From a virus, in IMG/VR virus record IMGVR_UViG_3300031699_000001, positions 1 through 53,537 of that record: a stretch of 53,537 nucleotides of DNA, one strand, 5' to 3'. The notes beneath the pieces are model-generated. The model worked only from the letters and a program-made list of their open reading frames with translations. It made no database searches and was not told the DNA's origin. A program made the translations under genes and the position numbers. This document shows, piece after piece, positions 1,217 to 17,318 of the stretch; positions within the stretch are counted from its first letter, which is position 1, and every line of letters begins with the position of its first letter.

Positions 1217-1417
1217 GTAAGGATTTGCCTAATTCTAGTTTTGCATAGAACATTAGTATACGGATCACATGGAGCTTAACTAGAAAGCCATCACCGAACG
1301 TCTATGTTATTATTAGTATATTCACCTTACATTTTTAGCTCTCCATATCTAAAAACGTCTTTACCGATTGAACAGGATACCCTGTACGTTGCGTTACCTA
1401 TTCCGCCACATAGCAAC
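1208..1417 (-). ncRNA. Structured RNA element R1, about 210 nt, with two possible pseudoknots
   Basis: This fills a gap of 268 bases with no gene. Outer helix: GTTGCTATG (1409-1417) with CATAGCAAC (1208-1216), 9 bp perfect, stacked directly on GTAAGG/CCTTAC (1325-1330 with 1217-1222). Local hairpins lie at 1372-1385 (5-bp stem, 4-base loop) and 1332-1355 (7-bp stem). The loop of the latter (1341-1346) matches 1269-1274 over 6 bp, crossing the inner helix. TTCTAGTT (1278-1285) with AACTAGAA (1233-1240) and 1301-1306 with 1244-1249 also cross each other. The 5' part contains a tRNA-Leu-like D-arm string (TGGCGGAATAGGTAACGC), but I cannot fold a canonical tRNA. Pairings were read by eye; the function is unknown. 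Confidence 0.55.
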
Positions 1418-1423
1418 CATTTA

Positions 1424-10862: not shown

Positions 10863-10896
10863 GCTAACTCCTTTGTAGTGTTATCCCAAATAATAT

Positions 10897-10972
10897 GTGA
10901 GGCAACATACCGGCCAAGGAGTCGCCTCACTTAATCAAGAATATTTAAACTCTAAGCATACAGCAATAGAGT
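10897..10972 (-). promoter_or_regulatory. Tandem hairpins R4 in a 133-base gap
   Basis: On the minus strand ACTCTA/TAGAGT (10949-10954 with 10967-10972, 12-base loop) is followed by GTGAGGC/GCCTCAC (10897-10903 with 10924-10930, 20-base loop, then an AT-rich stretch). The second is terminator-like without a clean U-run. They sit just before the ribosome site of the 71-residue gene and may be a leader or processing site. Confidence 0.5.
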
Positions 10973-10995
10973 AAAAACCATTATAATATAACACT

Positions 10996-11939: not shown

Positions 11940-12725
11940 TTAAACTCCTGCAATTGTAAAATCTTCATCGTTATATTTAGAATTAACATTCCCGTTAATT
12001 TTCTCATTTAGATAACTTTCAAATTTAGTTCCGAATAAAGTTTCCGGCCGTAAATATATGCACATTTTATTATCCCTTAGCCATTGAGAACATTTATTAT
12101 CGATAACTTTTTTAAAGTCATCAACAGTCCACTTTTCATTTAATCTTGCTTGTATAAAAGAGATATTCTTTTTACTATTACTTCTAAAAGAAGTTGAAGC
12201 TTTTAGATTTAGGTAGTCAATTATAGTTTCTATCTCTCTCTTTAACTCTATATTTAACTCTTTCTCTATATCTAACTCTGGCGGACGTTTGTCCGCAAAT
12301 GTCCCATTTTTGTCCACATTTGCTAATTGCTGACTATTGCAAGATTTAAGACGGTCTCTATACTGCTTTTTCCTCTCACCCTCGGTACTACTTTGACCAA
12401 TAAAATTCTGTATATCTGCAATAAATATCTCTCCTGTTCTCATTATTTCAACTATCCCAAGGTCTTTTGCAAGGTTCAGGGCATGCATTACATGATCAGG
12501 ATCATGACCTATCACCTTAGACAATACCTCTATTTTATCTGCTTTATATGGGATGTATTCATTTATTTTTAATTGTCCGTCAAACTTTAAGGATTTTAAA
12601 TAAAGCTTTAAAAGCACTAAAGAATATATATATCCGTTTTCCATTGACTCTATGACTTTGATATGATCTTGATCAAAGTAGTTTTCTTTAAACTTAAGAT
12701 AATAATATTTTTTATTTTCGCTCAC
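11940..12725 (-). CDS. Phage replisome organizer (DnaD-like replication initiator), 261 residues
   Basis: Residues 1-120 match the winged-helix N-terminal region of phage replisome organizers (YYYLKFKENYFDQDHIKVIE, later SSTEGERKKQYRDRL). The C-terminal part has the DnaD-like block with TVDDFKKVIDNKCSQW and MCIYLRPETLFGTKFESYL. It should bind the phage origin and recruit the DnaC-like loader encoded next. The start codon is GTG, right after RNA element R5 and its U-tract, so initiator expression may be tuned by that RNA. Confidence 0.9.
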   Translation of the reverse strand: MSENKKYYYLKFKENYFDQDHIKVIESMENGYIYSLVLLKLYLKSLKFDGQLKINEYIPYKADKIEVLSKVIGHDPDHVMHALNLAKDLGIVEIMRTGEIFIADIQNFIGQSSTEGERKKQYRDRLKSCNSQQLANVDKNGTFADKRPPELDIEKELNIELKREIETIIDYLNLKASTSFRSNSKKNISFIQARLNEKWTVDDFKKVIDNKCSQWLRDNKMCIYLRPETLFGTKFESYLNEKINGNVNSKYNDEDFTIAGV

Positions 12726-12740
12726 GCTTACCCCCAGATC

Positions 12741-12759
12741 AAAACAAAAAGGACTTATT
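12741..12759 (-). terminator. U-tract and 3' helix strand ending RNA element R5
   Basis: AATAAGTCCT followed by TTTTGTTTT on the minus strand. Its 10-base partner lies about 45 bases upstream. It would end transcription before the replisome organizer if the closing helix forms. Confidence 0.5.
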
Positions 12760-12830
12760 CAAGCCGACTTGGCGGATCGGGGTACGCCTAAAACGCCAGC
12801 TTAAATAAGTCCTCATGATCCCCCGATCAT
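12750..12830 (-). ncRNA. Structured RNA element R5: pseudoknot-versus-hairpin leader before the replication initiator
   Basis: Minus-strand order: a 5' hairpin ATGATC-GGGG-GATCAT (12830-12815), then AGGACTTATT (12813-12804) pairing perfectly with AATAAGTCCT (12759-12750). Inside lies a second stem with CGCCA/TGGCG and GCTT/AAGC pairs. The internal loop holds CCCCGATC (12775-12782), which is fully complementary to GATCGGGG of the 5' hairpin (12821-12828). So the 5' hairpin and an 8-bp pseudoknot compete for the same bases. The promoter lies immediately upstream. Confidence 0.6.
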
Positions 12831-12834
12831 CTAC

Positions 12835-12863
12835 ACTTTACTAAAAATAACTGCCTTTGTCAA
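12835..12863 (-). promoter_or_regulatory. Promoter of RNA element R5 and the replication operon
   Basis: TTGACA (12858-12863), 17-base spacer, TAAAGT (12835-12840): a perfect -35 and 4 of 6 at -10. The expected start, near 12829, is the first base of the R5 hairpin, so the transcript would begin with the structured element. It overlaps the end of the zinc-finger gene. Confidence 0.55.
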
Positions 12864-14732: not shown

Positions 14733-14753
14733 ATTAACCTCACTTAAAAATAA

Positions 14754-14853
14754 GGGTAGGATATTACCCGTTCCGCACCTTCCGGCCGATACCTAACTAG
14801 GATTTTATGTATCGTTTATCGGTATTTAGCTAGCATAAAAAATTATCCTACCC
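14754..14853 (-). ncRNA. Structured RNA element R7, 100 nt with 9-bp closing helix
   Basis: GGGTAGGAT (minus-strand 5' side, 14845-14853) pairs with ATCCTACCC (14754-14762), followed by TTATTTTTAAG. Inside are CCGATA/TATCGG (14786-14791 with 14817-14822) and an alternative GATAC/GTATC pair that shares bases with it, so two inner folds compete. It is the 3' part of a 339-base gap without genes. Confidence 0.5.
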
Positions 14854-14862
14854 AGTCCCAAA

Positions 14863-14941
14863 GATGATAACCCATTCCCTACACGTCTGTAGGTCGTACT
14901 TGTTAATTCAAGTCGGCTGGTTCGCATCATCTCAGTACATC
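14863..14941 (-). ncRNA. Structured RNA element R8: three-way junction, 79 nt
   Basis: GATGAT/ATCATC (14863-14868 with 14936-14941) plus AACC/GGTT close a junction with two perfect hairpins: 14878-14893 (6-bp stem, CCTACA/TGTAGG, 4-base loop) and 14898-14913 (5-bp stem ACTTG/CAAGT, 6-base loop). The two arms on one stem look like a compact tRNA-like or riboswitch-like shape. The stretch 14942-15071 upstream has only weak hairpins and no ORF I trust. Confidence 0.5.
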
Positions 14942-15071
14942 GAGAGCTAAGCGTCCCGGGTCTTATAATAATAATCCTCAATTTTCCACCGACATTTCAG
15001 AGCCTATTTACTCATTGCAAGTCGATGATAGTTTCCATTTAGGCTTTTGGATTAAGTCATCATAGTTTCAA

Positions 15072-16391: not shown

Positions 16392-17120
16392 TTATTCCAC
16401 ACCTAGTGGCAAATCATCGTTTATTTTTTCATCTTCTAGTAAAAATTCAGGCTCTTTATCTTCATCACTTGTCTGTAAAGGCTCGTCAAACGCACGAGAA
16501 GCGCCCTCATTTAAGCGGTTTATTATATTTTCTACAAAAATACGATCTTTTAAAAATTGATCGTTTGAGTACGGTTTCTTTGAAGTTATATCTTTTCGCA
16601 GGTTTGAGAAAAATAAGCGCTCTTCATCATTAAGTGAGTCTTTATAATCAACCGCCATTTTAAAAAGTATTTCTCTTTTCTCATTCCATTCAGTAAATCC
16701 TACTGTTTGTTTTGGTGGCAATGTTTCTTTTTTTTCAGGTATTTTTTGAGTGTCTTGACAGTCAGTATCAACATCGCCTGCAATACCCGTTATACTTACA
16801 ATAGAATATCTTCTAAGATAAGTAAATACCGCCCCGTCTGCTTGTATCTGATTTGCACCTTTCATTTGAATATGGCCGACTGTTATTTTACGGGATAGAC
16901 TTTCACCGCTTGAATGGATTATAATATTTTCAATCCCTATTTCATTATTTTCTGAGATAGGCAATTGCAATATTGATAATTCGTGTTTGGCATAAATTGG
17001 TTTTACTTCATCAATAACTTTTTCGAGCGGGATGTAATTATATCCATATCCTTTAGATGAAGGATATAGGTTTTTTACTTCCGCATTTGCTTTAATCATT
17101 GCTGTGTATAAGTTTTTCAT
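16392..17120 (-). CDS. erf: ERF-family single-strand annealing recombinase, 242 residues
   Basis: The N-terminal domain (about 1-120) has the family features YGYNYIPLEKVIDEVKPIY and QADGAVFTYLRRYSI...ITGIAGD. The second half is charged and ends in a strongly acidic tail (DEDKEPEFLLEDEK). ERF proteins anneal complementary single strands, here probably those produced by the exonuclease at 18537-19385, with SSB present. This gives a lambda Red-like set. Ribosome site AAAGGAGTAAACA. Confidence 0.9.
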   Translation of the reverse strand: MKNLYTAMIKANAEVKNLYPSSKGYGYNYIPLEKVIDEVKPIYAKHELSILQLPISENNEIGIENIIIHSSGESLSRKITVGHIQMKGANQIQADGAVFTYLRRYSIVSITGIAGDVDTDCQDTQKIPEKKETLPPKQTVGFTEWNEKREILFKMAVDYKDSLNDEERLFFSNLRKDITSKKPYSNDQFLKDRIFVENIINRLNEGASRAFDEPLQTSDEDKEPEFLLEDEKINDDLPLGVE

Positions 17121-17134
17121 TGTTTACTCCTTTA

Positions 17135-17299
17135 TTATTTAATTGTTAGTACTATGGTATTTATTGTTATAGTCACCGTATTTATAACTATCAAAAATAT
17201 CCCTACAAAAAATAGCCTAGAATCAGGCGGATATCTAAAAATATCATATATGCCTAGCGAAAAAAGTAACGAGCTTAAGATAATTAAAATAATATTCAT
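17135..17299 (-). CDS. Small membrane protein, 54 residues
   Basis: Two hydrophobic helices (about 2-20 and 29-50) separated by RYPPDSR. AAAGGAGAAATATA is a strong ribosome site. It sits between ERF and the coiled-coil gene and was found only by reading the 198-base gap. Function unknown. Confidence 0.65.
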   Translation of the reverse strand: MNIILIILSSLLFSLGIYDIFRYPPDSRLFFVGIFLIVINTVTITINTIVLTIK

Positions 17300-17318
17300 T
17301 ATATTTCTCCTTTATTAT

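Follow-up and report, generated by a model that had tools for sequence, protein, structure and literature searches.

The CI RNA of phage P4 terminates its own replication operon through pairing with seqA and seqC, and the short IsrK RNA of Gifsy-1 targets its own read-through transcript in trans (PMC4825925). The putL and putR RNAs of phage HK022 have a common sequence and form two stem-loops that bind the β′ zinc-binding domain of RNA polymerase (PMC9378689). In the attenuation systems of pT181 and pIP501, a terminator lies just ahead of the initiator start codon, an upstream strand (the pre-emptor) prevents the terminator by pairing with its 5′ arm, and a counter-transcribed antisense RNA serves as effector; the arrangement sets the initiator dose. 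Here we describe a viral leader RNA whose closest precedents are P4 CI RNA, IsrK (PMC4825925), and the pT181 pre-emptor (PMC5703833), without claiming membership in any of these groups. We interpret the leader, from its sequence, as a putative conditional intrinsic terminator of a kind found at phage operon heads and set by private self-complementarity.

The sequence studied is a viral record (IMG/VR IMGVR_UViG_3300031699_000001), analyzed over its full 53.5 kb (the window), with ~31% GC and genes almost all on the minus strand. The leader, also on the minus strand, is flanked by a 61-aa ORF (stop at 12860) and a replisome organizer gene (GTG at 12725) (Table 1). Among 100-nt RNAs on the coding strand of the window it ranks as the most stable, with a folding z of about -6. 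An earlier sequence-only reading had placed a promoter before a hairpin at this locus, and we found this promoter on the minus strand with a score well above that of shuffled sequences (p 0.006). The reading had also described the 3′ strand of the hairpin as complementary to an internal loop. The complementarity is complete over 8 nt (shuffle p 0.008), but the strand involved, GATCGGGG, is the 5′ arm plus the loop of the hairpin. Exact copies of GATCGGGG occur twice in 53.5 kb, both in the leader (12828-12821 and, inverted, in the terminator loop). The closing helix and U-run expected ahead of the organizer GTG were found as described, and the helix, AGGACTTATT/AATAAGTCCT, continues to about 19 bp.

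Table 1 Features of the leader and of the gene that follows it (window positions).
Feature	Position	Strand	Basis
Promoter TTGACA-N17-TAAAGT (-35 TTGACA at 12863-12858, -10 TAAAGT at 12840-12835, spacer 17 nt; predicted start about 12830-12828)	12835..12863	-	sequence and scan
5′ hairpin AUGAUCGGGGGAUCAU (AUGAUC-GGGG-GAUCAU) at the predicted start; displays the 5′ pairing strand	12815..12830	-	sequence and growing-transcript fold
5′ pairing strand GATCGGGG (PK5)	12821..12828	-	perfect complement of 12775-12782
Loop pairing strand CCCCGATC (PK3)	12775..12782	-	sequence, complementarity and folding tests
Long terminator hairpin, outer stem about 19 bp, -33 kcal/mol	12749..12814	-	folding
U-run TTTTTGTTTT of the intrinsic terminator	12741..12750	-	sequence
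GATCTGGGGG, Shine-Dalgarno region (GGGGG)	12731..12740	-	sequence
Replisome organizer / replication initiator gene, GTG start, 261 aa	11940..12725	-	PHROG 1163, 428, 5968; Pfam Phage_rep_org_N, Phg_2220_C

Other stretches on the minus strand of the window also stood out. A noncoding, GC-richer stretch of ~340 nt between two early genes (14733-15071) is a possible structured RNA, with a folding z of -2.3 over part of its length, a terminator-like hairpin at its end, and no Rfam match. An intergenic hairpin at 10863-10995, AGUGAGGCGACUCC...GUUGCCUCAC, is nested in a more extended pairing around the leader of the following gene (z -2.9). A 90-aa ORF at 1453-1725 has ~75% GC in a genome of 31% GC and no PHROG match.

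Relatives of the initiator were taken from viral and bacterial collections, and in most of them the gene was packed against its upstream neighbor without intergenic space. Close relatives, 63-68% identical, are L135, L195, and L134. L135 and L195 carry a long terminator hairpin 17-22 nt ahead of the start codon; no leader was found directly upstream of the initiator in L134 or in L142 (59% identical). The terminator hairpin of L171, L174, and L221 precedes a small ORF that in turn precedes the initiator. Every one of these terminator-bearing leaders was found to have a perfect complement between its loop or bulge and the upstream stretch, namely ACGCAC/GTGCGT in L135, TATCACC/GGTGATA in L195, TGAACCGGTCAA/TTGACCGGTTCA in L171, CTCCACC/GGTGGAG in L174, and ACGTTCAA/TTGAACGT in L221. 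The phage of L134 (G009) has a leader 1.3 kb upstream of the initiator, and its pair, AGCGTTAC/GTAACGCT, directly follows a near-consensus TTGACA...TATAAT promoter. Whole contigs of two phages, G012 and G006, contain two leaders each, with pairs that differ. No DNA similarity to the leader was found in phages and plasmids; a scan with a palindrome-like pattern gave chance GC-rich matches only, and its stricter version only a GATC-repeat array. L295 has a 650-nt noncoding stretch before the initiator (16676-17310, the same as L135:849-1483) with repeated TTGACAAATAATTATTTTTTTAGTATA promoters, at least two terminators sharing AGCAACTATTTTTGTTTAAT, and T-arm-like sequences; part of this stretch occurs in L446 before a different gene.

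We also scanned viral contigs blindly for the basal stem only (AGAGCCTTT ... AARGGCTTTT), so that complementarity was not a selection criterion. The scan returned 59 stretches. With a fold cut-off that was set after the table was seen, the strong long hairpins were all preceded by a 6-14-nt stretch complementary to the loop (such as ACGGGGCATCGTGT in L400 and GTGCCGGAATCAC in L437), and the weakly folded chance matches were mostly without one. Together, 10 leaders from initiator relatives and 14 from the scan by stem base alone gave a set of 24. Against dinucleotide shuffles of the upstream stretch, upstream-to-loop complementarity was highly significant in this set (Fisher p 6e-19) and in the 14 blind leaders alone (8e-11), about 9 of the 24 being individually not significant. 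A direct-repeat control gave 0.75. A single strong long terminator was found in an unrelated sample of 1.09 Mb (L122); it, too, has a promoter (TTGACA-17-TAGATT) and a complement of 8 nt. DNA comparison of three operon heads from the blind set with isolated phages gave no useful match. A leader's own pair of 5′ strand and loop ranked first in 15-16 of the 24, which, together with the different pairs within one phage (G006, G012), is as expected for private self-recognition. As judged from these sequences, the layout is conserved between leaders and the letters, apart from the stem base, are not. In L438, the loop sequence (TAGTGTT) is present once more, ahead of the 5′ strand, and this extra copy could sequester that strand in a possible third state.

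A second scan, with the window's own stem base (AGGACTTA ... TAAGTCCTTTT), returned ten records that form a family. In an alignment of six of them (mean identity 89%), all seven 5′-strand:loop pairs were intact in every sequence, and the helix carries compensatory changes from A-U to U-A (L468) and from G-C to C-G (L455, L456), with none broken. Covariation in relatives had been named as a check by the sequence-only reading, and in the loop helix it is present. These changes also bear on an explanation at the level of DNA, namely an operator, an iteron pair, or an origin sequence by the initiator gene. GATC-rich inverted repeats do adjoin this gene, and the start site is covered by a 16-bp palindrome, that of the first hairpin. 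However, the repeats are always inverted and never direct, as the control indicates, the stems are G-U-rich, no second copy of the palindrome lies within the window, and the layout also precedes non-replication genes. A DNA operator was rejected on the orientation and the compensatory changes, and we regard a DNA-level feature of any of these kinds as exceedingly improbable.

Noncoding sequence follows the terminator in part of this group. Directly downstream of the L468 leader (1306-1423, minus strand) there is a match to Rfam RF02932 (Betaproteobacteria-1 RNA, 104 bits). Related leaders of the L455 type also have about 300 nt of noncoding sequence 3′ of the terminator, and a CGTTAGCAGTGG-like motif common to this stretch in L413 and L455-L473 is possibly another RNA element.

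We folded growing transcripts with a nested model. In the window, hairpin 1 is predicted up to about 50 nt, the 8-bp GATCGGGG:CCCCGATC helix at 58-66 nt (probability about 0.99), and, once 74 nt are reached, hairpin 1 together with the terminator. The predicted succession is that expected of an attenuator. The 8-bp pairing had been read as excluding the first hairpin; this competition was recovered, with the correction that the terminator competes with the 8-bp pairing as well. In the growing transcript, the helix between 5′ strand and loop reached a probability of at least 0.8 in 18 of the 24 leaders (32% in shuffles), and it was displaced by the terminator in full-length transcripts. Such folding gives the order of the structures and not their rates, since a nested model cannot hold both late helices together. 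At equilibrium the terminator of the window is far stronger than the early helix (-33 versus -14 kcal/mol), so that antitermination would need kinetic trapping.

The locus thus has an intrinsic terminator between its promoter and the first gene, and an earlier alternative fold is predicted in the window and in those 18 leaders. Anatomy and comparison (competing folds, promoter, terminator ahead of the start codon, and no promoter in between) support the earlier suggestion of an attenuator, at the level of sequence. The second suggestion, a put-like site, was not supported. An RNA of the HK022 put type, modifying RNA polymerase for processive antitermination, would also be promoter-proximal and structured, with two hairpins ahead of early phage genes. 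However, the published put RNAs share sequence and bind the β′ domain of the polymerase (PMC9378689), they have no terminator of their own, and the sequences here are unrelated to one another with a second hairpin that ends in its own terminator-type U-run. We consider this explanation highly improbable.

Sigma-70-like promoters were found 6-36 nt ahead of the 5′ strand (14 of 24 leaders at p<0.05, Fisher 9e-12). No sense promoter was found between terminator and gene in the 24 leaders (Fisher 0.98), which makes the gene dependent on read-through. Start codons often lie 10-40 nt past the terminator, and the upstream genes have the opposite orientation at L415, L440, L413, L444, and L405, so that expression there must come by read-through. 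A counter-promoter was likewise not found (Fisher 0.73, 0 of 24 below 0.05), and a counter-transcribed RNA of the pT181 type was rejected on this result. The leader thus shares with pT181 and pIP501 the terminator just ahead of the initiator start codon and an upstream strand proposed to prevent it, and differs in that no counter-promoter was found and in that its 5′ strand pairs with the loop rather than with the 5′ arm.

It could also be that the 5′ structure only stabilizes the mRNA or blocks translation and that the U-run is there by chance. In L408, L415, and L448 the start codon is a few bases past the U-run and no separate Shine-Dalgarno sequence is seen. A U-run follows the stem in all leaders, though partly by selection, and a separate Shine-Dalgarno sequence lies past the terminator in most; we regard this explanation as very unlikely.

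The first genes or operons downstream of the leaders encode a replisome organizer, DnaD-like loader, primase, prim-pol, or helicase, and further ones a methyltransferase (methylase), terminase, homing endonucleases, or antirepressor. The proposed control of initiator dose fits the position of the leader here and in several relatives; as a specific role it does not hold, because other types of gene also follow. The same layout before primase, helicase, methylase, terminase, and antirepressor genes indicates a general device of operon heads. Protein antitermination classically acts at a terminator placed close to the promoter, ahead of an operon, as at lambda pR′-tR′. Many leaders precede early or terminase operons, and an antiterminator protein of the phage or its host (Q-like or similar) could target the terminator, the paired loops being only a structural mark read by this protein or by polymerase. 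However, no letters are conserved beyond the stem base, the paired letters differ between the two leaders of one phage, and Q systems need no loop complementarity. Private letters in each leader, even within one genome, argue for self-recognition rather than a shared protein signal, and we hold the protein explanation to be quite unlikely.

The leaders are of two types by the linker between 5′ strand and terminator. The linker is short (1-8 nt) in the window (6 nt), L171, G009, both leaders of G012 (G012a, G012b), L408, and L416. A short linker cannot run along a stem of ~20 bp, so the early helix and the closed base of the terminator are mutually exclusive in these leaders, and it is only here that the two folds of the attenuator exclude each other sterically. 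More than half of the 24 leaders have linkers of 13-35 nt, which would allow both helices together. In these longer-linker leaders the 5′ strand often lies in the loop of its own hairpin, as in L195 (15-bp stem), G006b (17-bp), and L135 (9-bp); this placement was significant in 7 of 26 cases (p<0.05, Fisher 4e-7). A model in which the early helix straps the stem base open fits the short-linker leaders better than the remaining ones, and where the 5′ strand lies in such a hairpin loop, pairing in cis and contact of two separate molecules are equally plausible.

The leader also resembles P4 CI RNA and P1 c4 RNA (Rfam RF01695), which likewise lie ahead of phage replication genes, with a short RNA from the same promoter and strand and an upstream seqA-like complement; the pairing decides premature termination in P4 CI and is proposed to do so here. 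The terminated RNA might be mainly a trans-acting antisense RNA for immunity or incompatibility, with a loop that base-pairs to the 5′ strands of other leaders; pairing in cis would then be a side effect. Each phage has recognition letters of its own and complementarity is retained throughout, the hairpin loops of L195, G006b, and L135 suit loop-loop contact of two molecules, P4 CI RNA and IsrK provide precedents (PMC4825925), and none of the 52 window ORFs scanned had an integrase or repressor Pfam match. Conversely, leaders also precede terminase and methylase genes, and one genome may have two with different pairs, neither of which would be expected of an immunity function, and protein regulators are also present in many such phages. 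P4 CI RNA is a processed member of a sequence family with two target sites; the leaders here end at an intrinsic terminator and have private letters. In most of them a third, downstream (seqC-like) site does not clearly rise above chance, and the signal for it is weak: complementarity of the loop to the downstream stretch gave Fisher 0.03, with 4 of 24 below 0.05. In the window, GATCTGGGGG partly repeats the 5′ strand, and its possible 6-bp pairing with the loop (GGGGUA/UACCCC; GGGGTA in the DNA) is not significant (p 0.2). The c4 covariance model and Rfam, at gathering and permissive thresholds, gave no match in the window nor at the element in 15 other loci. We consider a mainly trans-acting RNA rather unlikely. 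IsrK likewise has a single promoter giving a short terminated RNA and a read-through mRNA, on which the short RNA acts; it differs in that it activates translation of a downstream ORF, and complementarity between a 5′ strand and a terminator loop is not described for it in the sections of PMC4825925 considered.

Our preferred model is that the window leader is a transcription attenuator at a phage operon head that limits itself through private complementarity, which, taken as a whole, is on balance probable. RNA polymerase would start at about 12830. GATCGGGG, the first strand out, would form the small hairpin and then pair with CCCCGATC once the terminator loop emerges. While this helix is held, the base of the terminator stem would stay open, because a 6-nt linker is too short for a stem of ~19 bp, and polymerase would read into the initiator gene. 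With the 5′ strand engaged elsewhere, the long hairpin would close, and transcription would stop at the U-run with release of an RNA of ~80 nt. With its complement free in the loop, this RNA would be expected to pair with the 5′ strand of the leader transcribed next and to favor further termination. The outcome would be a copy-sensing, self-limiting shut-off with a private recognition sequence. The layout, the complementarity and its retention across unrelated sequences, the compensatory change in one family, the promoter position, and the fold order are computed; from the folding model we infer that the early helix acts as an antiterminator, and by analogy with P4 CI RNA the terminated leader may feed back in trans.

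The recurrence of this layout at operon heads, with other letters each time, among many bacterial viruses that are unrelated suggests a class of RNA switch that has yet to be described. The layout is not described in the open-access literature searched, and Rfam has no such family; catalogs of RNA based on sequence are blind to such a class, as only complementarity is conserved. We tentatively propose, as a possibility, that this is a widespread phage operon switch in which a terminated sense-strand leader recognizes the first nucleotides of its own transcript, each operon sensing its own transcription or copy number and shutting itself off by a private RNA code, with no protein needed. If true, this would provide a simple rule for finding further members, compact insulated parts for synthetic gene circuits, and a testable answer to how repressor-less operons limit their own expression. 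If the class is real, many high- and low-GC phages would control early, replication, and packaging operons by an RNA-only, self-addressed terminator.
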